From Paulownia fortunei (taxonomy: Eukaryota > Streptophyta > Magnoliopsida > Lamiales > Paulowniaceae): a stretch of DNA of 64,000 nt. The position numbers were made by a program, and so were the translations under genes. Positions 5,168-35,050 of the stretch are shown here, in pieces (positions within the stretch are counted from its first letter, which is position 1; each line of letters opens with the position of its first letter). The stretch is taken from NCBI GenBank assembly GCA_019321725.1, contig CM033107.1, positions 19,273,445 to 19,337,444 of the forward strand, in the 5' to 3' direction. The notes beneath the pieces are model-generated. The model searched no databases. It was not told where the DNA came from and saw nothing but the letters and a program-made list of their open reading frames with translations.

Positions 5168-5627
5168 ATATAAGTGCATATTTTGATATATTTTTGTATC
5201 AATTTTTTTATACTTTTCTTGCTTTATTCTTGTTAATATTATAGTTTTGTTAATATTTTGTGTTAGGGAATCAATGAATAAAAATATATCAAAAAGAGCC
5301 AAAATAAAATTGAAGAAGATAACATCTTTCATGAATAAGTTAGGAAATAATATTTTATTTGATCAAAAAAGTATCACAATTAGAAGAAAATTATCATTTT
5401 GCCTAAGTCCATCATGTGTATATCAAAATATATACAAGAAATAATTTAAACTTTACAAGTGATTATTGGATTTGCATTAAATTCAAAATAAGCATTGGTC
5501 CAAACTTGCACAATTTTTGTATTTTGCGCATAACTCCATACTCAAAGCCCTATGGACTTGAATCTTACTTTATTTGAAATCCAAGAGATAGAACTACAAC
5601 TTTGTTATTGGAAACTCAGCCTAATTC
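5168..5627 (+). repeat. Gypsy 5' LTR, piece 1
   Basis: It aligns with the start of the 3' LTR (24021 onwards), beginning ATAAGTGCATATTTTGATAT. Relative to the 3' LTR it keeps about 30 extra bases near 5335-5380. It is interrupted at 5627 by the copia solo LTR, whose left target duplication (AATTC) is its last five bases. Confidence 0.85.
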
Positions 5628-7872: not shown

Positions 7873-7985
7873 AATTCAACTTTAATTATAGTAGAAAATT
7901 CATCTAAGTGTTTGCATTGGAAATGATCTATTTATGCCGACACATCTCCTTAAATCAAGTATAACTTTGTCCTTAGTGGTTGGAA
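7873..7985 (+). repeat. Gypsy 5' LTR, piece 2
   Basis: A 113-bp piece matching about 24436-24545 in the 3' LTR. It begins with the right AATTC duplication of the solo copia LTR and ends with TGGAA, the left target duplication of the second copia insertion. Confidence 0.85.
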
Positions 7986-8085
7986 TGTTAGAGTAAGATG
8001 CTCAGTTCCCCAACTAGATTGGGTGTATTGTACTCTTTTTTTTATAAAGACAATCTTATTGGGAATCATATTAATAAAAATGCAC
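7986..8085 (+). repeat. Stub of copia 5' LTR
   Basis: These first 100 bases align with the start of the 3' LTR at 11918 and with the reversed start of the solo LTR (read from 7872 downward). Similarity stops after AAAAATGCAC, and the sequence then runs straight into the internal region. This marks a deletion of most of the LTR and probably of the primer-binding site. Confidence 0.85.
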
Positions 8086-8922: not shown

Positions 8923-9291
8923 GAATTGGATATCGGTTGTGGCTCACATATCTGCAATTATTTGCAGATAATGACAAGAAGTAGGAAGTTGAATAGAGGA
9001 GAGATGGTCCTAAGGATGGGAAATGGAGCAAGAATTGACAAATTAGTTATAGGTACCATTAATCTAGCTTTTGAAAATGGTTCTGTAATAGTTTTAAACA
9101 ATTATCTTTTTGTTTCAGATATTATTAAGAACATTATTTCTATTCTAGTTTTGGATAGAAAAAGTTTTAGATTTACCATTGAGAATGAAAATTGTTTCAT
9201 TTTCAAACGTTCTAATTTTATCTATTCGGGTTTTTTGACGAATTATTTATATACTATTACTCCTCATAACCCCATTTTCATAAAACAATAG
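8923..9291 (+). pseudogene. copia protease remnant
   Basis: An open stretch of about 120 codons, ending at a stop at 9289-9291, corresponds to the pre-protease/aspartic protease part of copia pol. It begins with the family pattern around GCGSHIC. The catalytic D-[TS]-G triad reads D-I-G here, so the key hydroxyl residue is lost and the enzyme would be inactive even without downstream stops. In live elements it cleaves the gag-pol polyprotein. Confidence 0.75.
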
Positions 9292-11880: not shown

Positions 11881-11917
11881 GATACATGGGCAATTGGAGC
11901 TAGGCCAAGTGGGAGAT

Positions 11918-14227
11918 TATTATAGTAGGATACCCAACGCCCCAATTTGATTAGGTGTATTGTATTTTTTTTTGTTAAAGATAATCTTATTAGGAATCAT
12001 ATTAATAAAAATGCACTTTATTTATCTTATGTCTTGCGCATTAGATAAAGTCCTTAGACCAAATTTAGCTACGGGGTATGGTCGTGCATATGATTATGAT
12101 CATAGAACATGCTTCTAAAGTTTTGGTCTTAAATAAGTTCCAAGTCGAGGGCTTTTTGAGATGGAACATCAAATAGCCCAGTAAAACTCGTGCATACGAT
12201 GCATGCTCGTAAGACAAGAATGTTGCATTCAATCGGTATTAGCATTGAGATGTAAATGCATATATGTACGTGCTTGTTAGAAAATAAGTACATTGAACAT
12301 AGCCTGCGAGAAATTTTTAGCTGGAGGCTTTGCCTATCGAAATAAGAATTTATGTGTTGCAGTAGTACATAGCTAGTCCTCGAACTTAAGGCACAATGGT
12401 AGCCTTGTGTGCATCCTGCAACACTTTGATATATATTTTAATTGCTTGACAATCACAAAGGGGGTATGTTAGGTGTTACACTAGTGTGCATGGAGGTTTG
12501 TTAGTGACCAACATAGAATTTGACACTTGTCTTTTTAACAAGAGAATCACCTGTGTTTTCATAGTTCGTGATTCAAAGACCTTGACCAAAGAAGGATGAA
12601 TTTTGATTCATCAAGAATTATTGGAACTTGAAATGGGATCATATTTATTGAACCATTTAGGATTTTGACTTATAATTCATGCCCTAGATTCAATCGGAAG
12701 ACTAGATGTCGAAAAGAACCAGACGTGTATGGTATTGACAACTGAAATATGTTTACTCGCTATTTCACATAAGACTGGTTTGTCATGATTACTTGATAGG
12801 TATTTTCAAGAATAGTGAGGTTTTTGGAATTAATGAATTAATTCCAAGTGGATTAATTAATTAGACTAATTAATCAAAATAATAATTATTCATAAGTTAC
12901 AAATATTGTAAGTTCACTACTAGCTTAGCAATGAACATAAGAGGGTCACACAACTTTATGGAAAGTAACATTTCTATTTTGGAATTTTTTAATGATTGAA
13001 AATTAATTAATTAATACTGATTAATTAATTAAATAAGGGTTTTATTTAATGATTAAATTAAATTATTTAATTAAGTAATTGAGTTATTTAATTGGACCTA
13101 ATTTGATTAGAAAACTCAATTAGAGTAAATTATAATTAATTAATTGGATTGATTAATATGAGATTAAATCAATTGGATTGATTTATAAACTTTTTAAGTC
13201 CAAACCCAAAAATTAAAGTGGATCACTTAAAAAGCCCACTAGAATATGAAGAAAATAATTAAAATAAATATAATTTATTTATTTAATATATTTAAATAAA
13301 TAAATAAATAGTGACCTCTTTTTATGAGATAAAAATTGGCTACTTGGGTATTTATTAAGTATATATATATATATATATATATTTATGATATATATATTTG
13401 ATATATATCTATCTTGATATTATTTGAAGAGTTCAAATTAATATCAAGAATATATGTAGATAATTTTTTATGATTAATATAGTTTCAAATAAGTCCATAT
13501 ACACTAGAGAGAGAAAAGATAAGATTTGTTGAAAGATTTAGAATTCTTCCAAGATCAAAATTTGAAGTGGTTCAAAAATTGACAAACTCTCCAAGAGTTG
13601 GATAGAAGTGAATTTTCGGCCCCTATTCGTATGGAAGGGCCGAAAATCGCATGGTAATTTTTAGGAAAAATTATTTTGTTTGTCTTCTATTTTTCTCTCT
13701 AATAAAAATAAAAGAAAAGAAAGAAAAAGAAAAGTGTTTCTTGAAAATCCTGATTTTCTTGTTCTTTAAAGAAAATTAGTTTCTTGATATTCTCTTCACA
13801 TTAAAATTTCAAGAACTTAAAGAATTAATCTTTATTATTCTTGAAAGCTTGTTCTTGATCCATCAATTAGGTTAAATGACAAATATTACTTTGGATCTAG
13901 ATTAGAAAATGATTTTAAGGATACTAGTGAATCCTTTTAATCAGTGTTATTTTTCATATCGTGGACCTGATAGAGGGGAGACACGTAGATCTCTTCGAGT
14001 TTGATAAGTCAGGAATATAGAAATTGATTACTTTGTTTCCTAAATCAACCAGAGTGCTCGAAGGTATACTCTGTATTTAATATATTTGTTTATATATTCA
14101 CTTAAATAAGTGCAATCGTTAGAATCGTTTTCGAATCGAGTGGATGTATTTATTTGATAAATCTATGTCTTTATAAAAAAATTATTTTTTCATTGCGCAT
14201 GCCCCTATGATTATAGCGAATCAAATA
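11918..14227 (+). repeat. copia 3' LTR
   Basis: This 2310-bp LTR has its start decayed to TATTATAGTAGG (TGTTAGAGTAGG in the solo copy) and its end decayed to GCGAATCAAATA (GCGAACCCAACA in the solo copy). It is the reverse complement of 5628-7872 throughout, apart from small indels. An (AT)n run sits at 13360-13382. LTRs of over 2 kb are long for copia elements. Confidence 0.9.
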
Positions 14228-15420
14228 TAAAATTAGGTGATTTAAGTTGGAAAAATGAAGCTAACAAACAAATCTACAACTTTCATGTTGATCACTTTTT
14301 CAAATTTAGTTGATTGCATGGAGAAAAGACATGCGAATTTGGAGTACATTTGAAGTTAATTTGGAGTGCATTTGGAGTGAATTTGAAGGTAACAACTTAG
14401 ATACTCTTCTACTATAAATAGGGGCTCTTTGATGGCACTCAAGACACACAAAAACTCTTAGAGGGGAAAGAAAATTTTATTGTTGTCTTTCTTTAGACTA
14501 AATTTTCTAGTAGTAATAGAAATGAATTATCTAGTTTTTCTTTTATTTTCAATCTTTTCTACTTTCATTATATTTTTCTAAATTTCATTTAGTTAAGGAG
14601 AAAGGGTGAACCTCTTGATGGAGGAAGAAGAATGGTTATAAAGATGCAAAATGTTCAGGTGTATTGTGTTATTGTTGTAATTTTTTTATTGAAACCCTCC
14701 TTATTTTGTGATGATTCTTGATTTATGTATCTCAAATGACACAACAAATACTTGAGTTTATTTAGCTTTTTGTACGGTTCTACCTCACCGACTGCTAATA
14801 TAAAATATTGATTTGTTGTAAACAAAGATGTGCATAAATATTTGATCCCATAAATAAGTATTGGCGTTAAAATATTTCTTGTTGTGTGGTGATTCTTGAT
14901 TTATGTATCTCCAATGGCACAATAAATATTTGGATTCATTTAGCTTATTGTATGGTTCTACCCTATTGACTGCTAACGCAAACCCTTGATTTGTTGTAGA
15001 TAAATGTGTGCATAAATACTTGATCTCATAAATAAGTATTGGTGTTAAGAGATAATTTGCAAACAGTAAGATAATATCATGATTACCTTAAAAGGTGAGC
15101 TATTTAATAACATCTTCCCATTGGAACCTTCATTATGTATGGATTCCAATTATGGTATTTAAAAGAGGTAAAAAAATAAATAATTGTTCCTCTATCCAAA
15201 AACTCAAGTGTGGATCCCTAATTCTCATTACTTTTATTACTTTAATTTTTTAGTTATAGCATAAATTTTTCTTTCTAATCTAAATTACATTCACCCCATC
15301 TTTTAAGAAATATAAATCCAAAAAGTTCAAACAATTTTCCTGTGGATCGACCTCAGACTCCTTATAAATTTTTTAGTTGACACAACCTGCACTTAAGTTT
15401 GCAAGCTTAAAGTTGTAGCA
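14228..15420 (+). repeat. Gypsy 5' LTR, piece 3
   Basis: It continues the gypsy LTR and ends at AAAGTTGTAGCA, just before the primer-binding site. A TATA box (ACTATAAATAGG, 14411-14422) corresponds to the one at 24753-24764 in the 3' LTR. It contains a 178-bp tandem duplication that the 3' LTR lacks. Confidence 0.85.
14706..15060 (+). repeat. 178-bp tandem duplication inside the gypsy 5' LTR
   Basis: Two diverged copies sit with period 178 bp (GATTCTTGATTTATG at 14713 and again at 14891). Both contain a GGTTCTACC segment and an AAATAAGTATTGG segment near the end. The 3' LTR has a single copy (about 25070-25240). This accounts for almost all the length difference between the two LTRs. Confidence 0.85.
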
Positions 15421-15426
15421 AACTTT

Positions 15427-15444
15427 TGGCATCGTTTCTGGGGA
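15427..15444 (+). promoter_or_regulatory. Gypsy primer-binding site
   Basis: TGGCATCGTTTCTGGGGA lies six bases after the LTR end. It is a decayed form of the TGGCGCCGTTGCCGGGGA-type site used by OTA-clade gypsy elements, where a host tRNA 3' end primes minus-strand cDNA. The position fixes the 5' LTR boundary. Confidence 0.75.
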
Positions 15445-15659: not shown

Positions 15660-17240
15660 CAAGTGCATACCATGTGTTATTACTTGCAACCTCTTTGAAA
15701 TTCTGTTCCATCTTGTTTCATTTTTCCTCTCAATGCAAATAACTTTCAATTCAAGCTAACTATGATCCCTTTACTTTCTAGACTCTGAAATCCCTTACTT
15801 GCATTTGAATGAATTTGATGAAGTATGTGCCACTTTTGACGATCAAACTTATATAAATGAGATTGTTAAGTTCAAATTATTTCTTTTTTCTTTAAAAGAT
15901 TGGATTAACTCTTTTAAACCTAGGTCAGTTGGCACTTGGTAAAAAATACAAGCTAAATTTTTTAAAAAGTTTTTTCCAACTTATAAAACTAATGTTTTGA
16001 AAAGACAAATCCAAAATTTTCTCAAAATTCTAATGAAGCTTTCTTTCAATGTTGAGAAAGATTTAAAGATTTGTTAAATTCATGCCTATATCATGATTTT
16101 GAAAAATAACACTTAATTAGTTTGTTTTATGAAGATTTAACTCCTGAAATAAAATAATTTATTGAAACAATGTGTAATGGTGAGTTTCTTGATAAAAAAC
16201 CTAATGAAACCCTAGAATTTTTAGAGCATTTGATAGAAAACTCTCAATCATGACATAGTGTTAATTCTTCTGAAGGTTTTATCTGAACTAATCTTGCTAA
16301 TAGTAATAAAAAAATATTACCTTAGTCAAGAAGATGATCTAAATGCTAGGATTGCAAGTTTAACAAGAAAAGTTGAGGCCATGGAACTTAAAAAAGTAAA
16401 GAAAATTAGATTTGTGCAAGATGAAGAAGTTTGTAACATTTGTGAATTTGTTGGACACTCCACCAATGAATGTCCAAATATTCTAGCACAAGAAAATATC
16501 ATGAACACATTCAAAAAACTTTTTCATTCTCCATATTCTAAAACTTACAATCCACAATGGAGAAATCATCCCAATTTTAGTTGGCGAGATGAGAACCGTG
16601 CCCAACTGCTACATTCACAAAAGTTACCAAATTTTTCTTCTTATTCAGCTCCACATACAAAATCTCTTGAAGAGACCTTACAAGAATTTATACGTTGACA
16701 AACAAATATCAATAACCAGACTTCACAAACCATCAATGAGATCAAAAATACACCTTCAACACTGACAGCTTCTTTGCGTACTCATGAAAAAGGTAAATTT
16801 TCTGCTCAACCTCAACTTAATCTTTCCACTCAGTATCATATTTTTTCTTCAAGTGAAAATTCAATCAAAGAGTCTAATTCGGTCACAACCTTTTGTAATG
16901 GAAAAGTTGTTGATAAGACTATTCATCTCAAGGAGAAAGTTTTTAATCCACAATCAGAAATAAAGAATGGAAATAGACTTGATGATGAAGGTACGTTTAA
17001 AGAAGGTGAATTTGAAAACGATAAAAAAAAACTCACATTTAGCTCTTTTTTCTCAAAGATTGCAACTGAATCAAAAGTTGAACTTAAATGCTGAAATTAT
17101 TGAAGTTTTTAAACAAGTCAAGATTGATATTCTATTATTGGATGCAATCAAGCAAGTTTCACCTTATGCCAAAAATTATGAAAGATTTGTGTACAATCAA
17201 AAGAAAAAATCATGTACAAAAGAAGGTATTTTTAACTGAA
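15660..17240 (+). pseudogene. gypsy gag remnant with zinc knuckle
   Basis: The retrotransposon gag fold region is readable from about 15780 (LHLNEFDEVC) to 16250, with stops at several places. A coiled, lysine-rich stretch and an intact CCHC zinc knuckle at 16432-16473 (C-NI-C-EFVG-H-STNE-C) follow. The frame 16258-16698 stays open through the knuckle. Downstream pieces (16774-17094 and 17088-17390) carry the linker to protease in shifted frames. The live protein would form the particle core and bind genomic RNA. Confidence 0.8.
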
Positions 17241-17244
17241 ATTA

Positions 17245-17700
17245 TTAGTTCAATTATTCAACAATTCACTCCACCCAAGTACAAAAATCCAGGTTATCCA
17301 ACCATTTCATGTACCATAGGAAACACTAGAATAAAATGTGCTTTACTTGATATTTGTGCTAGTATAAATCTTCTACCTTTCGCAATTTAGAAAACAGTTA
17401 GGTTTGGGAGAACTTAAAATAACTTTTGTTGTACTCTAACTAGTTAACTGTTCGATTAAAGTTCCAAAGAGAGTGGTAGAAGATGTGGTGGTACAAATTG
17501 ATAAGTTTTACTTTCTAACGGATTTCATTGTTTTGGACACAAAGCCAATTACACATACACATACATAGATTCCTATCATTTTGGGTCGTCCTTTTTCAAA
17601 TGCTCTTATTGATTATCGGAATGGTATTTTAAAGTTATCTTTTAAAAATATGACTTTAGAACTAAATGTGTTTAATATTTATAAGCAACCTGCAGAAGAT
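17245..17700 (+). pseudogene. gypsy aspartic protease remnant
   Basis: It is recognised by the CTIGNTRIKCALLD block leading to the active site (17349-17363) and by the ILGRPF motif at about 17577-17594. The catalytic D-L-G-A-S of this clade reads D-I-C-A-S, so the conserved glycine of the flap-facing turn is lost. A stop at 17389 and others near 17440 and 17566 break the frame. It sits between gag and reverse transcriptase, as usual. Confidence 0.8.
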
Positions 17701-18269
17701 GTCAAAATACAGAAAATTGATTCAATTGAAGACTTGTTCATGAATATTTTACTTTCACTAATTCCTTTGATCCTCTGGAAACTTGTTTTGAAAGTGAAAG
17801 TATTTGTAAAAAGACATACTCTAATACTCTCTCTGAATTTTCCCAGGTATAAGAAAAATATTTTTGGAAGCTAATGTTTGAATAATTTTCATCATCAATA
17901 GTATAATCTGTTTCATCAAGTATTAAAGCTCTCGTGATTGATTTGAAACTTTTGCCATTTGATTTGAAATACTCTTATTTGGGTTAGAATGAGACTTTTC
18001 AAGTAATAATTTCTTCCAAACTTGATGCATTCCAAGAAGGTAAGTTAATCAAAACTCTGAAAATGCATAAGAATGCTTTATGATGGACCATTGCTGATAT
18101 TAAAGATATTAGTCCTTTATTTGAACACATAACATCTATCTAGAGGAAAATTTTAAACCTTCTAGAGAAATGTAATGAAGGCTAAATCATAATATAAAAG
18201 AAGTAGTGAGAAATGAAGTCAATAAACTCTTAGATAATGAAATCATTTATCATATTTTTGACAGCAAAT

Positions 18270-19020
18270 GAGTAAGTCCTACTCAAATTGTACCGAATAA
18301 ATCTCGAGTTAATGTAGTCAAGAATGAGAATGATGAATTAATTCCAACTAAGATTGTTGCTGGTTGGCGAATGTGCGTTGACTATAGGAAACTCAACTTA
18401 GTTACTAGAAAATATCATTTTCCATTACCTTTCATGGATCAAATCTTAGAAAGAGTTGCAGGACATGAAATTTACTATTTCTTAGATGGATATTTTGGGT
18501 ATAATCAAATTGTAATTGCACTTAAAGATTAAAAAAAAACTACTTTTACATTCTCTTTTAGTGCTTTTACATATCTAATGATGCCTTTTGGATTATGTAA
18601 TGCACCAGCTATATTCCAACGATGCATACTTAGTATTTTTGGTGACATGGTAGAACGCTTTTTTGAAATTTTCATGGATGATTTTTCTATTTTTGGTAAT
18701 TCATTGGACGATTGATTGTCTAATTTAGAAAAAGTTTTGATTAGGTGTAAAGAAAATAACTTTATACTCAATTGGGAGAAATGTCATTTTATGGTAACAA
18801 CTAGTATTGTTGTTGGACACATTATTTCATCAAAAGATATTAAAGTAGACAAATCTAAAATCGAGTTAATTGCCAATTTGTCAATACCAAAATCTGTGAA
18901 GGAGGTAAGATCATTTTTAGGACATGCTAGTTTTTATAAAAGATTTATCAAAGATTTTAGTATAATATCTAAACCTTTGTATAATCTTCTAACCAAAGAC
19001 ACTATTTTTTAATGGACTGA
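18270..19020 (+). pseudogene. gypsy reverse transcriptase remnant
   Basis: A well preserved polymerase domain: GWRMCVDYRKLN (near 18366), the FPLPFMDQ segment, FLDGYFGYNQI near 18480, MPFGLCNAPAIFQRC near 18580, and the catalytic FMDD box at 18671-18682. The thumb/connection region follows up to a stop near 19011. Stops near 18268, 18530 and 18714 interrupt it. The order gag-PR-RT-RH-INT with this spacing defines Ty3/gypsy. Confidence 0.9.
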
Positions 19021-19053
19021 AAATTGTAAAAATATTTTATTGAGTTTAAAAGC

Positions 19054-19480
19054 ATGCTTATGTCTGCTCCAATCATGCACCCTCTAGATTGGACTTTACA
19101 TTTTGAAATAATGTGTGATACCAGTGACTATATTGTTGGAGTTGTCTTAGGACAAAGAAAAGATAAGAAACCATATGTCATTTACTATACAAGTAAAACT
19201 TTGAATATTGCTCAATTGAATTATTCAACAATTGAAAAAAAATTACTTGTTGTAGTTTTTGCATTGAACAAATTTAGATCTTATATTGTTGGCTCACCAA
19301 CTGTTATTTTCAGTGATCATGCAGATTTGAAATATCTTTTATCAAAAAAAGATGTCAAACCTAGACTGATTAGGTGGATCTTCTTACTCCAGGAATTCAA
19401 CATTACAATTCGAGATAAGAAATGAGTAGAGAATATGGTGGGTGATCATTTGTCGAGACTCGTTTGTGATGACTCATTTC
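19054..19480 (+). pseudogene. gypsy RNase H remnant
   Basis: The open frame 19054-19425 carries the RNase H domain: a CDTSDYIVGVVLGQ block with the first catalytic aspartate, YYTSKTLN, the NYSTIEKKLLVVVFAL helix with the catalytic glutamate, and FSDHADLKYLL. A stop after RDKK (19423-19425) is followed by readable VGDHLSRL at about 19438. This domain removes RNA from RNA/DNA hybrids. Confidence 0.85.
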
Positions 19481-19569
19481 AAATACACCCATTAATAACA
19501 CTTTCCCTAATGAACAACTATTTAATATTTCTATTTTATCTTGATTTACTGACATTGTTAATTTTTTTG

Positions 19570-20697
19570 TGGCAGGAAAGATGTCACTACATTGGAATTC
19601 CCAAGATAAAAAGAAGTTTTTGATCGAGATGAAAAAAATTTATTGGAATGATCCACACATATTCAAATATTATTCTGATCAAATCCTTTGGAGATGCGTG
19701 CCAAATAATGAGAAAGATAATATTCCTATTTTTTGTTATTTACGAGCATGTAGTGGTCGCTTTTCGGCAAGAAAAACCATTACAAAGATCTTGCAATGTG
19801 GATTTTATTGGCCAACTCTTTTCAAGACACTTACATATTTTGCAAAAATTATAAAAATTATCAAAAGTTGGGATCCGTTTCAAAGTAAAATATGATGCCC
19901 CTACACCCTATCCTAGTGATTGAAATCTTTGACTGGACTTCAAGGGACCATTTCCATTATCATTTGGTTTTATTTATATATTGGTCGCCATAGATTATGT
20001 CCTAAAATGGATCAAGGTAATTCCCTATCGAAATAATGATCACTAAATAAAGTTGCAACCTGTTATCACCCTCAGACAAATGGACAAGTTGAACTTGCAA
20101 ATAGAGATATAAAACAAATTTTAAAAAAGACAGTTAAACTAAATCGTAAAGATTGGTCTCTTAGACTTACCAATACACTTTGGGCATATAGAACTATTTT
20201 TAAAACATCATTAGGCATGTCTCTTTATAGAATAATTTATGGAAAACTTTTTCATTTACCTCTTGAACTTGAACACAAAGCTTATTGGGCAATTAAAATA
20301 TTTGACTTCAACATTGATGAAGCTTCAAAATTGTGCAAATTGCAAATTAATGAACTTCAAAAATTGAGAAATAATTCTTGATGCATTTGAAAATTCTAAA
20401 ATTCATAAAGTAAGAATCAAAGAATTTCATGATAATAAACTATCAAGAAAAATATTTGAGGTTGGTCAAAAGGTTTTGCTTTATAATTCTCGATTGTATT
20501 TATTTTCTGAAAAATTGAAATCAAGGTGGAGTGGTCATTTTTTTATAAAAGAGGTATATCCTTATGGAGCGATTGACATTGAGAATCCTAGAAATAGTAA
20601 CATATTCAAAGTAAATGGACAAATACTTAACCTATTCTTAGAGAATCAATTTTTACAAGAGGAAATTATTTTTCTTTCTAACCCTTGTTATGATTAG
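19570..20697 (+). pseudogene. gypsy integrase remnant
   Basis: It includes a decayed zinc-binding start, core fragments (LDFKGPFPLSFG near 19940, [16 protein letters not shown] near 20070, [14 protein letters not shown] near 20185, [14 protein letters not shown] near 20260) and an open C-terminal part (20476-20697) with the KLKSRWSGHFFI...FKVNGQ pattern of the GPF/Y module. Several frameshifts separate these blocks. The [12 protein letters not shown] motif is characteristic of Athila/Tat-type elements. Confidence 0.85.
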
Positions 20698-20699
20698 TA

Positions 20700-21712
20700 T
20701 GTGGATATATATACATATTTTCTCTAACTTTGTTTTGTAGGCTTCTTTTTTTTATTTTTTTCTTTTCTTTTTCCAGTTAAGTTGAAGATAATGGTACTCC
20801 GTGCTATTAACATCGGATTTATCAGTTTCCCAAATAACAGAAATTTATGTACAAAGTTTCTTTTCTTTTCTAGTTCTCTTTTCTTATTTTTTTCAAAATG
20901 GATGACATTCTTCTAACTCTCCAGAAGCAATTTTCTTTTCTTCCTAAAAATATCATTTTAAAAATTTATAAAACAAGAATTGAAAGATTAAGGATGCTTA
21001 TGCACAAGGGCATCCCAAGGGACATACGATGATAATTGAAGCAAGGTAAAAGTAGCAGGTGAGTTTTCACATAAGTTTTCAAACTTCCTTATCTACATGT
21101 CTGGTTTTGGTAAAAGCACATATTCAAAAAAATCAAAGGGCGAAAAAAATACAAGTTTGTCACAAATGTGCTCGATGGAATTGCAACACAAAATGTTGTT
21201 TCTTAGGATAGTTTTTAAAAATTGAGAAGATAAAATTCAATTCATTATGGATGGATTGAGTAAGGAGTCTTTACATGATATTATATTGACTTTTGAGATG
21301 CATTCATGTGGATTAGTACAACGTCCAATTCTTGATTTATGGAATCACTTTTGGGATGAATATGAGCGTTATAGTCTTGATATTAAAAGATCCCATTTGC
21401 CATTTATAAGAAAACTGGATGGAAAGTATATCCTCAACCCATAGATGACGTTTAAGCTATTGTTGGACATAAAACTAGAGGTAGATGTGAGCCACAATCA
21501 CAACTACATGTACATTCAAGTTTAAGTAGCAAATTTTCAAAATTTGTGTCCTTATTTTCATTCTTTCTGACAAAATAAAAAGACGAACAATAAATGTATT
21601 CCCTATTAACACCTGAATAAATAACACCGTACTTACTCCATTTTTGCACAACTAACTTTCAAAAAAAGACAAAGTAAAAAAAATAAAAAAAATAAAAGGG
21701 TCTTCCACTCGC
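20700..21712 (+). other. gypsy post-integrase region, unidentified open frame
   Basis: This non-pol stretch lies between integrase and the LOG-like copy. It contains a readable but unrecognised frame at 21247-21444 (65 codons, with EMHSCGLVQRPILDLWNHFW), preceded by shifted-frame coding-like sequence from about 20898. Athila-type elements often have an env-like frame here, but I see no transmembrane pattern that would prove it. From 21450 to 21712 the sequence is AT-rich, with A-runs directly before the LOG-like reading frame, and could be a captured 5' untranslated region. Confidence 0.45.
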
Positions 21713-22340
21713 AAGTTCAATTGTATTTATGTCTTTTGTGCATCCAAAAAAAAAATAGTGAGTTTATAGGGGCTGACAATAACATTGATAGAACTTTAGC
21801 ACAAAGAAAAATTCATTTAGTGTATTGGGGAGGCAATCTAGGGTTAATGGGGAGTGTTGCTACTTTTGCTCATGTAGGAGGAGTCAATGTTTTAGCAGTT
21901 ATCCCAAAACCTTTACCAGTATAAAAATCACAGGTATGACAATTGGAGATGAGCTAAAAGTATTACATATTCAGGATAGAATGCCAAACATGTTAAATAA
22001 TGTGGATGTATTCATCACTCTACCTGGAAGTTTTGGTATGTTGGAGGAATTATTCCAAGTTGTCTCTTGGGCACAACTCAACATTCACCAGAAACCTGTA
22101 GGTATTCTTAATGTTAATGGTTTCTTTGATGGTTTGCTATCTTTTGTAGATCATGCTGTAGAAAAATGTTTTATTTCACCGTCTGCAAGATGAATTCTCA
22201 TTTCTGCTCCAATACCTGACCAACTGATTGATCAACTTCTAGCATATATGCCAGAACCTGATTCAGCATTAGCTCGTGTGGATTGGTCCAACAGGGATAA
22301 TGATCGAAAATGCAAAATGCATTTGATTCTCAATTTATGA
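21713..22340 (+). pseudogene. Captured LOG-like gene (cytokinin riboside 5'-monophosphate phosphoribohydrolase), broken
   Basis: The translation matches plant LOG proteins almost end to end. LOG enzymes release active cytokinin base from its riboside monophosphate in the cytosol. Visible blocks are a start with VFCASKK (LOG: VFCGSS), AQRKIHLVYWGGNLGLMG (GGG turn altered to WGG), HVGGVNVLAVIPKPL, GMTIGDELKV, DRM with the conserved arginine, LPGSFGMLEELF in place of the PGGxGTxEE signature, WAQLNIHQKPVGILNVNGFF, and a C-terminus PEPDSALARVDWS ending at TGA 22338-22340. One frameshift near 21915 and one TGA at 22191-22193 (where Arg is usual) break it. There is no intron, although plant LOG genes normally have several. 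It lies in the sense direction inside the gypsy element. There is no poly(A) tail or own target duplication, so capture by template switching is favoured over later retroposition. Confidence 0.85.
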
Positions 22341-24020
22341 AATTTATCCTTAATGGTTTCAGCTAATAGTATATATTGTGTTGTTTCATCTTTATTTTTT
22401 AATAAGTCACATTTCAGGTAATATCTTCTAAACTTTACTTTTCTATCTATTTTCGAATTGGGGACAATGTTTCAATTAGGTTGGGGGAGGGATAGTTGAT
22501 ATCATGTCTTATGTGTTCAATATGTGTTTTTCTAGTTTTTTTTTTTAAATTCAAGCGTATTTTCTTTTAGATCCGTTGAAACCATGAAAAAAGATGGCAG
22601 AGTAAAGGGTAACTGTAATAATCTTGGGACGCACCCCTATTTTTTTGCATAACATGGCAAGCTTGATAAGTTTTTAACAAAATTTTGTGAATTATCATTT
22701 TTTATTTTTTGGGTCGTAGATGATCTTCAAACTTCAATGATTAAAATTAAGTACGAATAATGTGGTTTGATTGATGATGGTGTTATTTTAGACTTTGACG
22801 TTGTTCTTTGGTTAATATATTTTTATAATAATTATACTCAAATATTTTTGCACAAATAGTTATGTTATTCAGCGTGGAGACAATCATGTCAAAATATGTA
22901 GTTCTTATGCCCTCACTTTAATCATCACTTGGGTTTTCGACATGAAGGTGTTGAGTATTAGAACTTTTTCTTTTGGTCTGTCGAGGCGAACGACTGATTG
23001 AACACCACTTGAAAAATGATTAAGGCATTAAGTTTTCTAGCACCATGGCCAAATCAACTTCTTCCCCATGTGATGTTCCAAGATAACATCCCACATAGTG
23101 AACCACTTTAGCCTTTTAATAAATAAGCATTTTATTTGGTAACCATATATTCTTACCTAACTTAAATATACTATTATCTTACATTTGTTCTAAAAATGAT
23201 TTGGAGTTTAAGAGACATTGCATTGACAAGGTGGGCTTGCAAAAAAAAATTAGGTTGGAATAGAAGATAAGTGTGGGGGAATTTCTCTTCTAAAAAAAAT
23301 TGCAAAGTGTTAAAAATATTACGAGTTGCAACTAAAAATGAAATATTGCAAAATCAATAAGAATGATGAAGAGAGGTCCAATTCAATAACAATAGGTCCC
23401 GGTGTTGAAATTTATGGAGTATGAGAATTCTTCATTGATAAACTATATGTCTCTAATCCCATAAAAATTTTAGAACCTTTGTTGTATCATATCCTTTATT
23501 TTTTTAGCCACATCACTATCATTTGGCCCCATTACAACCTTTGTTGAAAACCTTTTGATTTCGTGTGTGCCTTTGGTGTAGTGGAGATTTGTACCAAATG
23601 AAGAGTTTATGATGTTTAACTCTTTCATTAGAGATTGGATGATTGTTTTTGTGAGGTTCTATGGGAATTAACTTGTTTGAAACATGAATGATTTCATCAC
23701 TGTTGACATGGGTATACTTATTGTGGAAATGTATTGACTTTTGAATGACTAAGGGTTGGATTCAACAATTGTTTGATTTTATTTCCATATTACTTTATTG
23801 CGTCTTGAGAATAATGGTTAGAAGTTAGTTATCATAGGTGTTTGTGGATATCACTGGTGGATTTGCTCACGAGACTATAACTCGTCCTCTGTGGGCTAAC
23901 TAGGGGTTTACAGGCTTGTTGCATATGCTAAATGCAATCGTGATTTCCTATAAAAGTGGATTAGTTTAGGTTTGTTTTAGGCTTGTTCGAGGACGAGCAA
24001 GGGTTAAGTGTGTGGGAATT
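22341..24020 (+). other. gypsy 3' non-coding region and polypurine tract
   Basis: No gene is readable. It contains the GGGGACAATGTTTC...GGTTGGGGGAGGG passage (22459-22490) typical of post-pol DNA in OTA elements. Near the end is a TTGTTCGAGGACGAGCAA passage (23977-23994), followed by a purine-rich GTGTGTGGGAATT tract (24009-24020) that would prime plus-strand synthesis immediately before the 3' LTR. Confidence 0.7.
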
Positions 24021-25603
24021 TGATAAGTGCATATTTGATATATTTTTGTATGAAATCCTTTATACTTTCTTTGCTTTATTCTTGTTAATAATATAGTTTT
24101 ATTAATGTTTTGTGTTAGGAAATCAATGAACAAAAAAAGATCAAAAAAAGTCAAAATAAAATCGAAAAAGATAACAAGAAGCGTCATAATTAGAATAAAA
24201 TTATCATTTTTTCCTAATTCCATCATGTGTAGATCAAAATATATGCAAGAAATCACTTGGACTTTGTAAATGATTGTTGGACTTATATTAAATTCAAAAT
24301 AAGTATGTTTTCAAACTTGTACAATTTTTGTATTTTGGGCATACCTCCATTCTAAAAAGCCTTATGTATTTGAATCTTACTTAATTTGAAATTCAAGAGA
24401 TAGAACTACAACTTTATTGTTGGAAGCTCAACGGAATTCAACCTTGATTATAGCAGAATATTCGTCCAAATGTGTGTATTGGAAATGATCCGTTTATGCT
24501 AATATATCTTCTTAAATCAAGAATAACTTTCTCCATAGTGATTGGAATTAGGTGATTTAAGTTGGAAAAATAAAGCTAACAAACAGATCTACAACTTTCA
24601 TGTTGATCACTTTTGTAAATTCAATTGATTACATGGAGAAAAATCTATGACAAAATTCGAAATTGAAAATAATATTGAATTTAGAGAACATTTGAAGTTA
24701 ATTTGGAGTGCATTTTGAATGAATTTGGAGATGCTAATTTAGACACTATTCTACTATAAATAGGGACTCTTAGATGGCATTCAAAACACACAAAACCCTT
24801 AGAGGTGGAAAGAAATTTTTATTGTTGTCTTTTTTTTAGGCTAAATTTTCTAGTAGTAATGTAAGTTTTCTAATAGTAATAGAAATGTATTCTCTAGTTT
24901 TTCTTCTATTTTTAGTCTTTCCTACTTTCATTATGTCTTTCTAAATTTTATTTAGCTAAGAAAAAAGGTGAACTTCTTGATGAAGGAAGATAAACAATTA
25001 TAAAGGTGTATAGTGTTTAGGTGTGTTGTATTATTGTTTTAATTTTTTATTGCAACACTTATTGTTTTGTGGTAATTATTGATTTATGTATCTCCAATGG
25101 CACAACAAATACTAGGGTTTACTTAACTTATTGTATGGTTCTACCCCACTAACTGCTAACGTGAAACCTTGATTTATTGTAGACAAAAGTGTGAATATTT
25201 ACTTGATCCTATAAACAAGTATTGGTGTTAAGAGATAATTTGTAAATAGTAAGACAATTTCATGATTACCTTAATACATGAGTTATTTGATAACATCTTC
25301 CCATTGGAACATTCATTATGTATGGATTCCAATTATGGTATTTAAAAGAGGTCAAAAGAATAAATAATCATTCCTTTATCCAAAACTTAAAAATGGATTC
25401 CTAATCCTTAGTACTTTTATTACTTTAATTTCTTAGTTATTGCATAAATTTTTCTTTTTAATCTAAACCACATTCAACCATCTTTTAAGAAATATATAAA
25501 CTCAAAAATTTTAAATAATTTTCCTGTGGATCGATTTCGGACTTTCGAGAAATTTATTACTTGACACAACTTGTACTTGGGTTTGTAACTTTAAAGTTGT
25601 AGC
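24021..25603 (+). repeat. Gypsy 3' LTR
   Basis: This 1583-bp LTR starts TGATAAGTGCATATTTG and ends AAAGTTGTAGCA. It has a TATA box at 24753-24764 (TACTATAAATAG). It is uninterrupted and single-copy for the segment duplicated in the 5' LTR, so it serves as the reference for reading the split 5' LTR. Confidence 0.9.
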
Positions 25604-25608
25604 ATCGC
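25604..25608. repeat. Target site duplication (right) of + strand gypsy element
   Basis: TCGCA follows the 3' LTR end and pairs with TTACA at 5163-5167. The CpG is intact here and has become TpA on the left side. Confidence 0.65.
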
Positions 25609-30089: not shown

Positions 30090-31330
30090 GTCATCTCCAA
30101 AAGGGTTGTTGGCAATCTTCCTTGCTTCATTTTTTAATAGTGCTTCACCCGTTGACCTTTGACATGAAACAAAGAACCATTATTACCTTTGAACTCAACA
30201 ACACAAAATGGAAACACATTTTTAAACCACGAACGTGCGCGACGATCTTGACTTCAGTTTGCCCGAAAAGAGCTTCAAACGAGAATTAAACAGCAACATA
30301 TGTTGTCCTGGTTAGAATTCATGCCTCAAAATTATCTTACCATGCATTTTTGTGTCTTTTCCTTATAAATCTTTGCATTCTCATATGCATCATGACGAAA
30401 TTTCTCCATCGCATCTTATTACAATAGTCTATTGGTACCAACAGTTTTCATTGTCAGAATTTACTTGTCTCATCGCCTAATAAGCGCTGTTCCAACTCCA
30501 TTGGTAGATGACATGCCTTTTTCCAAACACCAATTGGTATAGTGTCTTGTAAGTGTGTGATAGGCCTAAAGTGCATCATCCAATTTGTGTGCCTAATCTT
30601 TGCGATTCATACGCACCGTCTTCTCAAGAATTCGCTTGACTTTATGGTTAGAAATTTTTGCTTGCCTGTTGTACTGTGAGTAGTATCCGAGTGCTACCTT
30701 GTGCTTCACATCATAATTATGAAGAATGTTATTAAATAATTTATTGCAAAAATATGTACCTTTACACTAACTATTGCTCTAAGAGTGTCGAAATGTGTGA
30801 ATATGTGCTTGTGTAAAAACTTCAACACTACCTTAGCATCATTGGTCGGCGTGGTATTGGCTTTCACTCATTTTGAGACTAGTCCACAATAATAGAATAT
30901 AGTTATGCCCCAAAAATAGAGGGAAGAGTCCAATAAAATTGATCCCCTAAACATCAAATAACTTAACCTCTATCATATTTGTTAATGGAAGCTCATGACT
31001 TCGTGTGATGGTCTCGACCCATTGGCATCAATCGCAAGTTTGCACAAAAGTATAATAATCTTTAAATAATTAAGGCTAAAAAATTCACATTGTAATACCT
31101 TTGCGACTTTTTGAGTAGGCCCGAAATGACCCCCACATAGAAATGAATGATAATATTTCAAAATCTCTTTAGTCTATTCCATAGGAATACATCGCCTAAT
31201 CATAGGATCATTACATCAATTGAAAATAAAAGGTCATCATGCAAATATGACTTAACATCGTGCATAAATTTCTTCTTTTGATGGGATAACATATACGGAG
31301 GAAAGACTCCACCCACAAGATAATTAACAA
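30090..31330 (-). pseudogene. minus-strand gypsy integrase remnant
   Basis: On the minus strand the zinc-finger region is decayed but readable (YYHSFLCGGHFGP then KVAKVLQCEFF, near 31160-31090). Core fragments follow, with a C-terminal part near 30260-30130 ending in VEFKGNNGSLFHVKGQRVKHY, equivalent to the FKVNGQ module. The catalytic core has many stops. The segment after it (NLPFFGRQPKLS near 30060) is a usual post-integrase tail in this clade. Confidence 0.7.
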
Positions 31331-31399
31331 AATCAACATACCATGGAAGTCTCTCCACAACTGCTAAGATGAGATCATCTAGAAACAACTCCTGAATGA

Positions 31400-31960
31400 G
31401 TGTTTCTACAACACCCCCATCTTTCTTTAAATAGGACAAGTGGTCAGCCACCATATTTTTACTGCCCTTCTTATCATGAATCTCGAGATCAATCTCTTGG
31501 AGCAATAAAATCCAATAAATCATTATGGCTTAGCATCTTTCCTAGAAGTATCTAATGGTTGCATGATCAGCAAAACAATAATTTTAGTGTCCACAAGATA
31601 AGCATGATATTTATTAAAAGCAAACACTACAGCTAACATTTTCTTCTCGATTGTTGTTTAATTTTGTTGTGCACTGTCCAAGGTCTGACTCACATAATAG
31701 ATGGCCTAAAAGATCTTATCATGCCTTTGGCCCAACACCGCTCCTACTGCATAGTCACTAGCATCGCACAAAAGCTCAAATGGTTGGGTCCAGTCAAGTA
31801 CCACCATGATAAGGGTTGAGATGAGTACCTTCTTAACTTGCTCAATTGCGTATAAACAAAAACCATCAAAATTAAAGGGCACTTCTTTTTTCAAGAGATC
31901 ACATAAAAGGTTAATAATTTTTGAGAAATCCTTAATGAATCTTCTATAAAGCCCAGCACC
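31400..31960 (-). pseudogene. minus-strand gypsy RNase H remnant
   Basis: The piece 31894-31706 carries LLCDASDYAVGAVLGQRHDK with the first catalytic aspartate, and 31523-31200 carries the domain end through MVADHLSYL. The sequence between is readable in shifted frames. Its place next to reverse transcriptase fits gypsy order. Confidence 0.8.
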
Positions 31961-32720
31961 AAGAAGCTTCGAATTGCTTTCACATTAGTTGGTGGTGGAA
32001 GTTTCTCAATGGCAATTATCTTGGCACGATCCATCTCAAGTTTTGCAGAAGATACCTGGTGACCAAGGATTATGCTATCTTAACCATAAAATGGCATTTC
32101 TCCCAATTGAGGACTAAGTTAGTCTCCTCGTATCTTTGCAAAATAAATTAGAAATTAAACAAACAGTGATCAAATGAAAAACCAAAAATGAAGAAATCAT
32201 CCATAAAAATATTTATGATCTCTTCCACCATGTCGTGAAAGATGGTCATCATACATATTTAGAAATTAGCAAAAGCATTACACAATCCAAATGATATCTT
32301 ACGAAAAACAAAAGTACTATAAGGACAAGTAACGTTGTTTTCTCTTGGTCTTAGAGGGCAGTGGCAATTTGGTTATACCCTAAATAACCATAAAAAAATA
32401 GTAAAATTAGTACCCTGCTAAACAATCCAACATCTAATCAAAAAGGAAAGGAAAAGTGATCTTTACTGGTGGCCTTATTCAATTTTCTATAACCAATACA
32501 TAATTATCAACCAATCATTGTCCTAGTAGAAATAAGCTCAATATTCTTATTCCTAACTATAGTTATACCCTTCTTTTTCAAAACAACTTGGACTGGACTA
32601 ACACAAGAACTATCTGAAAATAGCATACACAATCCTTGGCTTGAACTATTTTGAAACTTTGACTCGTACAACTTTCTTCGTAGCAGGATTTAAATGTCTT
32701 TGATGCTCAATTGAAGGTTT
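31960..32720 (-). pseudogene. minus-strand gypsy reverse transcriptase remnant
   Basis: The catalytic FMDD box is at 32207-32196 (minus strand). Upstream is the SFGLCNAFANF segment (near 32290), matching the PFGLCNAPATFQ block of the family. Connection-domain sequence continues to about 31960 with frameshifts and stops. The finger region towards 32700 is poorly preserved. Confidence 0.8.
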
Positions 32721-33049
32721 GTAAGAGTCTTCCAGTAAAATTTTATGCATCACAATTTAAGGATTAATGCTTTTCAAATAAAAAATAGATCATCCTATTA
32801 CAGACTTATATTCTCTCAATACTCACAACAATTTATCCAATTCTAATTGAGATAAAGAGGTAGAAACTATTACTGTATATGTTTCATTGTCACCCAAAAA
32901 TGCATATTGGAGGTGTTCAAGCAATTCCTTTAATTCCAATTATGCTTTTTTTGTCTCTTTAGTAGTTATATTTCCAACTTTTCCAACATTCAATCTTTGT
33001 TTCAACCTGCAATATATCTAGAGAAAACACATAATGTACCAAATCCTCA

Positions 33050-33360
33050 TCATCAACCAAATAATCAATACTTTGTGTCATGGAGTCAACAAGTTATCTT
33101 TCTAAGGGGTCTTTAGGCATGTGTTTGATGAGGTGGTATACATGCACTGTTCCATAATGTCTATCATTTTGCAAGTGTTGGATAGGTAAGCAACATATTT
33201 GCTAGTTGTAAGGTAATGGTGGATGACTTTACTTCCCCAAGACCTAATTTTCTGAAAACAAAAAATGGTATCAAAATAATACTTGCTCCAAGATCACAAA
33301 GTGATCAAAGAAAAAACCTCTTATGTTTCAAGGAATAGTAACACTCTATGGATCATTTAA
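33050..33360 (-). pseudogene. minus-strand gypsy protease remnant with intact active site
   Basis: The catalytic segment D-L-G-A-S is intact at 33295-33281 (minus strand), within LCDLGASIILIPF, followed by VFRKLGLGEVKSSTITLQLAN. The frame breaks near 33200. The + strand gypsy element of this window has lost the same motif. Confidence 0.8.
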
Positions 33361-35050
33361 ACTTGTGATGTAGCTTTTTTTGAATAATAGCACTGCATTC
33401 CTATGTAAGTTTGACTGTCTCAAAGTCCACTGATTTTCTCTTTCTTGACATCACATCCTTCATGAATTTGGCATAATTTGGCATTTATTATAAAGCATCT
33501 ACAAGATAGATATTAATGTGAATTATCTTAAAGATTTTTAAAAATTTAGCAAATTGAGCGTCAAGATTTTTCTTTTGTAATCTTTGAGGAAAGAAAAGGA
33601 AAACATCAGCATTAGAATGGATTTCAAGGTTAGGAGTAGATTTAGGCTTCTGCTCATCATGTTAAATCTCCTCTGCTTTTGATGGTTCCACCTCTGGACT
33701 CTGAATAGGTTAGTGAGTTTGAAACCTATCATAGTGGATTTCTCCAATTATGGACTTCTATACTCAATTCCACTCCTAAGTTGCATCGCCTTGCAATGCT
33801 CCTTAGGGTTGACCTTAGTGTCACTCGAAAAATTCCTTTTCTGCTATTGGGTGCTCACTATTGTAGCCAACTGCCCTATTTGGGTCTCCAAAAACTTTAT
33901 ATTTGTGCCCCCACCCATAGTCATATAGGCTCCTACACTTGATGGCAGTTGTCCAATCTAGTTTTTAATGTTATCAAGCTTAGTCACATCACGATTAAAT
34001 CTAGCTATTTTTTACTAATGAAAGTTCCAAGCACTTCATCCATTAATGTCTTCTTCTCAACCTCTTGAGTGTTAGAACTGGATGGATTATTGTAGCTCGG
34101 AGGGGGTTAAAGCATATTACTGTTGTTCCCACAAGATAAGTTTTCATGATTTCATAGTCCCTGATTATAGTGACTAGGCAACTGATTGCCCCTATAATTG
34201 AAGTTTTGGTTTTTCATGAAGTTGACTTCCTCATTAGACTCTTGTGAATTGAAAGGCATGTGAGGAGATGAAGTAGTTTTCCCTCATTAAGGTGTCCCAT
34301 TAGTTGTCAATGCTGCAAACTAATTCGATAGTGCAGAAACTTGCACAACAAAAGCAGTTTAATAAAGCTCAAGAACCCCATCTACCTTCTTAATAAATGA
34401 TCTTTCGAAAAGCCATTGGTAGTTGTTGGTTGTCCTTGTTTGACCATTCAACCCATTATAAAAGTACTGGACTTCCTGTTAATCCTCATATATATGTTGT
34501 GGGCATTTCCTCAAAAGATCCTTGAATCTTTCACTTTTCAGTTAAAAATTTCCTTCCTAGGTGGAAAGAACTTAGCAAGAAATTTCTAAGTCAAGTCACT
34601 CAAGTTAGTAATGCTCCCCAGTGCAAAAGATTGTAGCTACAGTCTTGCCTTGTCTCCAAGAAAGAATAGGAATAAATGGAGTCTAATTACTTTATCAGAT
34701 ATTGCATTCATGTTAGTCGTGTCACAAATCTCTAAGAACATGGCTAAATGGGCATTCAGGTCATCCAATGCACCCCTCTAAATAAGATTTTTGTTGCACC
34801 ATGCTAATGAGTGTGGGGTTTTAGCTCAAAGTTGTTTACATTGATCGAATAGTTTTGATTCATGGTCAGTTGAAAGTACTCTTGAATCGCTTTCTATTGT
34901 TGCGGTTGTGGTACTGGCAAGATCTCATTATTATTATTGTTCTTCATTGCCCAAACTTTGGTTCTTCTTGCTGCCTTTATTTCTCATAGTGTTCTTTCAA
35001 TTTATGGATCAAAAGAAAGTAATTCAACACTTTTAGTTTTTCGCATAAAT
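33360..35050 (-). pseudogene. minus-strand gypsy gag remnant
   Basis: Readable gag blocks on the minus strand include a QEVQYFYNGLNGQTR segment (near 34470), an asparagine-rich linker near 34150, and the gag-protease junction with FPQRLQKKNLDAQFAKFLKIF (around 33595-33530), a highly typical passage of Athila-type elements. No intact CCHC knuckle was found. Several stops are present. Confidence 0.75.

Follow-up and report, generated by a model that had tools for sequence, protein, structure and literature searches.

A dead Athila-type LTR retrotransposon copy of Paulownia fortunei carries two sense frames between its integrase and its 3' LTR, a decayed cysteine-rich frame (ORF-X) and a LOG pseudogene. 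We consider it probable, at roughly 0.7, that an Athila-type lineage has long carried ORF-X and LOG in sense after the integrase as working accessory genes. ORF-X would be a small basic cysteine-rich protein, kin of the carlavirus nucleic-acid-binding proteins (NABPs), and LOG, to judge from its sequence, an intronless cytokinin-activating enzyme. The window, that is, the whole stretch of 64,000 nucleotides analysed (assembly GCA_019321725.1, contig CM033107.1, positions 19,273,445 to 19,337,444), holds one such copy, with the following features.

5168..5627, forward strand: 5' LTR, piece 1, aligned with 24021-24439 (K2P 0.162); nested insertions interrupt the LTR
7873..7986, forward strand: 5' LTR, piece 2, aligned with 24435-24548 (K2P 0.206)
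14231..15420, forward strand: 5' LTR, piece 3, aligned with 24546-25604 (K2P 0.172)
15427..15444, forward strand: decayed stretch resembling a primer-binding site, read by eye
15772..16247, forward strand: decayed gag piece (P0139, 41% identity; PF03732 under its cut-off)
16945..17736, forward strand: decayed end of gag into protease (P0182, 57%)
18128..19027, forward strand: reverse transcriptase with 6 stops (P0182, 65%; PF00078)
19024..19476, forward strand: RNase H (PF17917; P0182)
19485..20610, forward strand: broken integrase (matches to P0182 and P0152)
20898..21444, forward strand: ORF-X, decayed, cysteine-rich, resembling viral NABPs (P0146, P0152)
21692..22340, forward strand: LOG pseudogene, cytokinin riboside 5'-monophosphate phosphoribohydrolase type
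24021..25604, forward strand: 3' LTR, TG..CA, from the LTR alignment

The domain order gag-PR-RT-RNaseH-INT is that of the Athila lineage, in which gag-pol order goes together with long LTRs, as in the Paulownia element (3' LTR of 1584 bp). The stretch at 15427..15444 is presumably an Athila-type primer-binding site by its likeness, and we take the integrase to resemble that of Athila, although the three-frame scan gave no Pfam integrase match in this decayed copy. A second, archaeal-type RNase H is a mark of the Tat lineage; none appeared in the three-frame scan of the window, which also missed the decayed integrase, and assignment to Tat was rejected on this ground. The 5' LTR starts with TA instead of TG, and the 5-mers flanking the element, compared as possible target-site duplications, differ (TACAA and TCGCA). 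We also rejected the reading that another element lies in tandem at 5-8 kb, and take the pieces at 5168-5627 and 7873-7986 to be the beginning of the 5' LTR of the same element, which nested insertions have interrupted.

The identity of the LOG segment is firm. The sequence-only reading had placed a LOG-like gene at 21450-22440 in the env-like slot of a gypsy element. The slot, the sense orientation and the intronless state all hold, with the integrase ending near 20610, whereas the span narrows to 21692-22340, the rest being flank. The piece 21792-22190 matches PF03641 (E 5.7e-22), so that the possibility of a segment unrelated to LOG falls away; all 120 fetched LOG proteins match the 21692-22340 region and nowhere else in the window (E 0.05), and the Paulownia protein P0003, itself a 100% match in the genome, is 77% identical. 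The damage is heavier than the one frameshift and one stop first read: the start codon is lost (ATA), frameshifts lie near 21750 and 21923, and stops stand at 22191 and at 21922, the latter adjoining the second frameshift. The active-site motif, PGSFGMLEE, departs from PGGxGTxEE.

That pol is far more decayed than LOG, as had been proposed, was not borne out. In the window copy, LOG has 1.39 lesions per 100 codons (3/216), the gag-pol pieces 1.86 (22/1185), or 2.28 with five extra stops in inserted codons included, and ORF-X 3.64. Across 40 copies the values are 1.72 for LOG, 2.12 for the integrase end (17 alignable) and 3.20 for ORF-X (30 alignable). The LOG values are thus among the lowest, yet with a small gap and references that are unequally distant they do not clearly mark LOG as better preserved than pol.

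The neighbouring frame, ORF-X, recalls plant RNA viruses. Its middle (about residues 33-125) matches both carlavirus-type NABP families, PF01623 and PF05515, and contains a CxxC stretch preceded by a basic one; in contrast to the viral proteins, it is encoded by an LTR retrotransposon, and its second half, which the match does not cover, is conserved. Each family was matched by 36 of 40 ORF-X relatives (E<=1e-3). When eight ORF-X proteins were scanned singly, seven exceeded the cut-off of PF01623 and six that of PF05515, as did two of six fused gene models for PF01623. None of the seven shuffled or reversed controls matched the two viral families; one reversed ORF-X matched an unrelated family at 1e-3, and matches near that value alone are therefore untrustworthy. 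Within the window, 120 ORF-X proteins matched 244 stretches, nearly all inside 20793-22304 (one elsewhere, E 0.015). The predicted fold of ORF-X is poor (pLDDT 58). According to PMC12172455, viral CRPs suppress silencing, and one of them is a transcription factor that induces hyperplasia.

Many other copies in the Paulownia genome share this arrangement. Family members carry LOG at the same junctions: with a query of LOG plus flanks, LOG included, all 40 scored matches crossed both borders. A query without LOG found 40 places, of which 20 were checked (two pairs look like duplicates); LOG was at least 80% present in 14, partial in two and absent in four, the six broken copies having breakpoints at five scattered points. 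No empty slot at the LOG borders occurred among these 20, and members with an uninterrupted post-integrase region, named beforehand as the sign of a later insertion, were thus not encountered among them. Shared junctions and many copies of a LOG-bearing element are thereby shown for Paulownia. A single late capture, or a LOG retrocopy landing in one element, would fit the intronless state of LOG, but the common borders, the lack of an empty slot in the 20 copies checked, the like order in Citrus and Primulina gene models and the LOG tree led us to reject it as having next to no probability. Capture by the window element itself, as had been proposed, finds no support, and no poly(A) tail was seen on reading the sequence after its LOG.

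The same comparisons bear on whether these LOGs belong instead to the host, as a normal gene family that segmental duplication multiplied and that lies close to elements by coincidence. Host-gene annotations do exist for some relatives, as for LOGL10 in Populus. Yet the spacer between ORF-X and LOG is common to 28 of 29 compared copies, the 100 bases after LOG to all 29, and the region following LOG, with a threshold of 80%, to 19 of 29; LTRs flank LOG in the copies read further out, and the domain is reported within Populus gypsy consensuses in PMC9289625. We regard a host family as scarcely credible.

Related arrangements were also met in Citrus and Primulina, where gene models fuse an integrase to a LOG related to that of the window. 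Among ten scanned models, the integrase precedes LOG in seven and ORF-X precedes LOG in six, in the same order as in the window. Residence in an element rests on DNA for Paulownia and, for Citrus and Primulina, on gene models predicted automatically. Such models may string adjacent genes together, and LOG is fused to a kinase or to DNA-transposon domains in three of those from Citrus.

In the tree, the window LOG joined the Paulownia LOGs (100/99) and fell within a 55-row set (100/99) separate from five canonical plant LOGs (100/97). It thus grouped with the LOGs of the Citrus and Primulina kind and not with host LOGs, and placing it with the canonical ones was rejected by the AU test (p 2.3e-5). 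P0152, P0087, L034 and L028 were left out of the careful tree; P0073 is a Rehmannia row. The Primulina LOG (104 residues), which the quick tree had put apart from the Lamiales set, was also not in the careful tree, and the element LOG may therefore not have come down by simple vertical descent. The outgroup came from genome contig matches, the best 80 of 559 being retained, all prokaryote-titled; five of them served in the quick tree, and the careful tree used three. Three viral contig searches returned no relatives, and a further one yielded 24 loci at 22-55% identity.

Next, we considered whether LOG has been of use to the element. Between copies, dN/dS was 0.49 for young-old and young-young pairs and 0.70 for old-old pairs, against simulated neutral means of 0.69-0.78 (sd 0.07-0.14). 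The young set comprised 20 copies hand-picked from the 150 best matches (16 open, four with a stop); the old set omitted L122, L123, L134 and L115, and three of its rows fell within the young clade. The ratio of changes at codon positions 1 and 2 over position 3 was 1.07 on internal and 1.19 on terminal branches for the 30 copies first fetched, whose tree is star-like, and 0.79 and 0.61 on internal branches in the larger set; LOG terminal branches (1.19 to 1.28) gave no sign of constraint. For ORF-X in the same 30-copy set the ratio was 0.60 (internal) and 0.85 (terminal), and for the integrase (10 rows) it was 4.77 on internal branches, which had hardly any length, and 0.85 on terminal ones. 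These values suggest that LOG was under constraint while the lineage was mobile, before insertion, although the 30-copy set showed none. The earlier idea that LOG was kept under constraint for a time therefore finds some support in the mobile lineage, but not in the window copy, which decayed neutrally after insertion: its stops, indels and amino-acid changes correspond to neutral decay since the LTRs parted.

The terminal branches and the internal 1.07 of the 30 copies would also suit a neutral passenger that merely spreads with the element, as would the finding that a single copy is lesion-free among 40 matching the window LOG region, and the loss of the active-site motif in Citrus. We judge this account quite improbable, since it sits poorly with the dN/dS of 0.49 between subfamilies, with open LOG frames of about 217 aa in several plants (58-68% identity to P0001) and with 92 of the 150 best genome matches lacking an internal stop, a hand count on a best-ranked sample whose surroundings were checked for a minority. 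PGGFGTLEE was read in 5 of the 40 copies from the LOG-plus-flank query and in 12 of the 20 hand-picked younger copies.

Enzyme activity might not be what was retained. EAR motifs recruit co-repressors, and the C-terminal L-x-L-x-L of element LOGs can be likened to them; the mobile LOG could then be no longer an enzyme but a nuclear protein whose disordered tail, a basic stretch followed by L-x-L-x-L, recruits a host co-repressor. Such an end is present in 72 of 82 full-length LOGs (many rows being close relatives), a basic stretch lies within the last 14 residues in 73 of 82, and the tail, predicted with low confidence, is probably disordered. In Citrus (23 proteins), the motif reads PGDLATLEA or nearly so in all eight readable copies, the last catalytic Glu being lost, and nine of the 23 end in KKYKL. 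We nevertheless hold this role to be unlikely: of the 120 LOGs listed, 82 are full-length and 66 of these retain PGGxGTxEE, four proteins near the clade base or alike (P0052, P0062, P0064, P0069) end before LxLxL, the one canonical LOG end readable for comparison is that of P0122, and so short a motif may serve another end.

We therefore return to ORF-X and LOG as working accessory genes. In active copies, LOG would free cytokinin in the cells expressing the element, which could favour dividing cells that pass on new insertions, while ORF-X may bind nucleic acid in the nucleus, weakening silencing or altering transcription. A more far-reaching version can be put forward only tentatively: an eudicot-wide or older lineage would work with a two-gene module resembling that of a virus that alters growth. 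It would pair a silencing-suppressor-like nuclear ORF-X, of a type shared with plant RNA viruses, with a cytokinin-activating LOG whose tail is nuclear and of co-repressor type, so that hormone levels rise and silencing weakens in the inheriting cells. Paulownia would owe to it well over a hundred LOG copies, many open, with even pol-deleted derivatives retaining LOG.

LOG in plant gypsy elements is already published: PMC9289625, citing Steinbauerova et al. 2011, describes Citrus and Populus Ty3/gypsy elements with a YgdH (LOG) domain, likewise LOG-type, and its Citrus elements are probably those encountered in this analysis. Its section on LOG treats the domain among odd domains rather than as a lasting element part with a partner gene, and names neither Lamiales nor a viral-type neighbour; the Paulownia analysis adds junctions, tree, decay and constraint. 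Athila elements with env-like frames also bear these in sense between pol and the 3' LTR, as described in PMC7264820, whereas in the Paulownia element these frames are ORF-X and LOG. No account of the ORF-X link was found in our literature searches; it would tie a retrotransposon to plant RNA viruses via one small protein. Were LOG active, cytokinin supply could be altered by elements that have many open copies, and 'host' LOG genes annotated in several plants (LOGL10 and others) may be element genes. The predicted model of P0001 matches the Arabidopsis LOG structures, with the same fold as At2g37210 and At5g11950 (PDB 2a33, 1ydh) and 48-51% identity in the structural match, whereas the element LOGs form a separate clade, are intronless and have a C-terminal tail of their own.

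The window LOG, a cytokinin-activating enzyme gene, lies with the cysteine-rich frame ORF-X in a dead Athila-type Ty3/gypsy copy, which is laid out as follows.

5168-25604, whole element, a single element
5168-5627, 7873-7986 and 14231-15420, 5' LTR in three pieces, split by nested insertions
5620-7873 and 11917-14237, arms of a 2.3 kb inverted repeat (79%), within the insertions splitting the 5' LTR
8923-9288, PF22936 remnant between these arms, presumably of copia type
between the LTRs, gag, protease, RT, RNase H and integrase, every scored piece with lesions
20898-21444, ORF-X, after integrase
21692-22340, LOG, after ORF-X
24021-25604, 3' LTR

The three pairs of LTR pieces differ by K2P distances of 0.162, 0.206 and 0.172 in order, and by 0.171 overall (1539 sites), or about 7-22 Myr under plant substitution rates that we assume. 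The window LOG shares 77% residue identity with Paulownia P0003 and has lost its start codon, acquired two frameshifts and two stops, and altered its active-site motif. Under a neutral decay simulation with divergence set to half of the LTR divergence, identity with the copy as inserted should be 82.4% (sd 2.6), and 1.9 stops and 2.5 indels are expected. The observed lesions and identity fit this expectation, plus slight extra divergence from the Paulownia relatives; thus, the frame was probably intact or nearly so at insertion and has decayed freely since. The sequence-only reading had described pol as far more decayed than LOG, which finds no support in the counts: 3 lesions in 216 codons of LOG versus 22 in 1185 of gag-pol (27 including stops within inserted codons).

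Copies elsewhere in the 509 Mb Paulownia fortunei genome point to LOG as a standing part of the element family. Using LOG and its flanks as the query, we scored 40 matches from 2474 first-look candidates. All 40 crossed both LOG borders, extending at least 89 bases upstream of LOG and 52 downstream, so the junctions proposed for comparison are indeed shared, but because LOG was itself part of the query, this is no proof of its preferential retention. A second query covering the post-LOG region without LOG found 40 places, window included; of the 39 besides the window, 20 (ranks 2-21) were examined on their upstream side. LOG was at least 80% complete in 14 of these, 67 and 77% in two, and 0-9% in four. 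The six incomplete copies break at 22523 (two, likely a duplicate pair), 22282, 22671, 21907 and 21844, never at the LOG borders. Members with an uninterrupted post-integrase region had been suggested as part of the evidence for a later insertion, and no empty slot was seen among these 20 copies.

The integrase end was present in 16 of the 40 scored copies, and 11 were broken in other ways. In 13, a common deletion runs from window position 19876 to about 20775, in some to 21198; reading the sequence of L106 revealed a fourteenth, and L114 and L115 look like a duplicate pair. Within this class, L136 and L138 (contigs C1 and C4) retain gag of the window element's family, followed by more distantly related sequence from the protease region, which matches Citrus P0182 416-779 at 28-46%. 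They skip RT, RNase H and most of integrase before ORF-X or its remnant and then LOG, and are pol-deleted, chimeric non-autonomous family members. L135 lacks gag as well.

Only one of the 40 copies had a lesion-free LOG, whereas 92 of the best 150 P0003 matches (86-100% identity, from 4368 first-look candidates) had no internal stop by hand count of the matched part, a few being partial and the surroundings examined for a minority; as these are the best-scoring portion, the genome-wide share is lower. A tree of the 30 first-retrieved copies was star-like. On terminal branches, the ratio of codon positions 1,2 over 3 was 1.19-1.28, without sign of constraint in the 30-copy or larger sets; nor did internal branches of the 30-copy set show any (1.07). 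In the larger set, internal branches gave 0.61 (young) and 0.79 (old), and the branch leading to three younger copies gave 0.034 at position 1, 0.020 at position 2 and 0.065 at position 3. NG86 dN/dS was 0.70 for old-old (630 pairs), 0.49 for young-old (720), 0.49 for young-young (190) and 0.48 among open young copies (120). Neutral simulations averaged 0.69-0.78 (sd 0.07-0.14, runs of 8 pairs), and we take the lower values as moderate support for constraint on LOG, the pairs being non-independent and the young copies hand-picked.

Related LOGs occur in other plants. Among 120 listed of 233 proteins found, Paulownia, Rehmannia, Reevesia, Orobanche, Populus and Xanthoceras each have more than one. 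A search restricted to long proteins found 76, among them gene models from Citrus sinensis, Citrus x changshan-huyou and two Primulina species in which LOG is fused with RT, RNase H or integrase. Integrase precedes LOG in 7 of 10 scanned fused models and Carla_C4 in 6 (two above cut-off), while P0125 has LOG leading and a different pol behind; automatic models may chain neighbours, as P0131, P0128 and P0142 join LOG to kinase or DNA-transposon domains. The domain order in the Citrus and Primulina models is that of the window DNA. Gypsy consensuses with the YgdH domain, which the paper links to LOG, are reported in PMC9289625 for two Citrus species and, under a looser filter, for Populus, with citation of Steinbauerova et al. 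2011; LOG in plant gypsy elements is therefore a known kind.

A careful tree of 66 rows included five canonical plant LOGs, none from Paulownia. The window LOG grouped with Paulownia LOGs (100/99); Rehmannia and Orobanche join them in a set of 14 rows (100/97), itself within a 55-row group (100/99) separate from the canonical LOGs (100/97). A single old LOG origin with vertical descent would fit these sequences. Transfer, or several sublineages, is possible because the Primulina piece falls outside other Lamiales in a quick tree. AU tests rejected grouping the window LOG with canonical LOGs (p 2.3e-5) or with Citrus rows alone (p 4.2e-5). Orobanche P0087, P0091, P0092 and P0094 form a divergent type with an altered motif (LDTLED, LDILED) and a retained LxLxL end.

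Among 82 full-length LOGs in the 120 listed, many of them close relatives, PGGxGTxEE is retained in 66, a basic stretch near the C-terminal end in 73 and the LxLxL end in 72. In Citrus, the last Glu of the motif is lost in all 8 readable proteins of 23, and 9 of 23 have a KKYKL tail. Use as an enzyme is thus likely for the LOGs of Paulownia and Populus; for those of Citrus it is doubtful. The predicted model of Paulownia P0001 matched Arabidopsis LOG structures with TM 0.91-0.93 by target; its tail, modelled at low confidence, is probably disordered.

Records of Xanthoceras, Acer and Populus contain ORF-X as an intact 182-residue frame; in Citrus it sits inside longer models. The search found 296 proteins (120 listed), some representing hundreds of sequences. 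PF05515 and PF01623, which are viral nucleic-acid-binding families, each matched 36 of 40 ORF-X proteins (best 1.1e-8 and 1.5e-8) and none of 7 scrambled controls. Around its cysteines, the window frame retains a stretch resembling Primulina P0152. The gene may have passed from virus to element, from element to virus, or from host to both. PMC12172455 describes viral proteins of this type as silencing suppressors, one of them acting as a transcription factor, with hyperplasia. In the open-licence papers searched, nothing was found that describes ORF-X as virus-like or pairs it with LOG.

The ORF-X/LOG spacer (21396-21520) resembles Citrus P0126, P0129 and P0139 in two reading frames, one of which serves Citrus gene models as an exon running into LOG. 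The spacer could perhaps be a splice or translation signal.

A second gypsy element in the window gave no match to ORF-X or LOG proteins; it and the remaining features are as follows.

30225-34765, minus strand, second gypsy element, gag-pol related to the same Citrus proteins as the LOG-bearing element
43756-44679, plus strand, PATROL1-like host gene (PF25761)
50397-50819, plus strand, peroxidase host gene (PF00141)
57466-57945, minus strand, STT3 oligosaccharyl transferase host gene (PF02516)
59944-60648, imperfect direct repeats with a unit of about 111 bases
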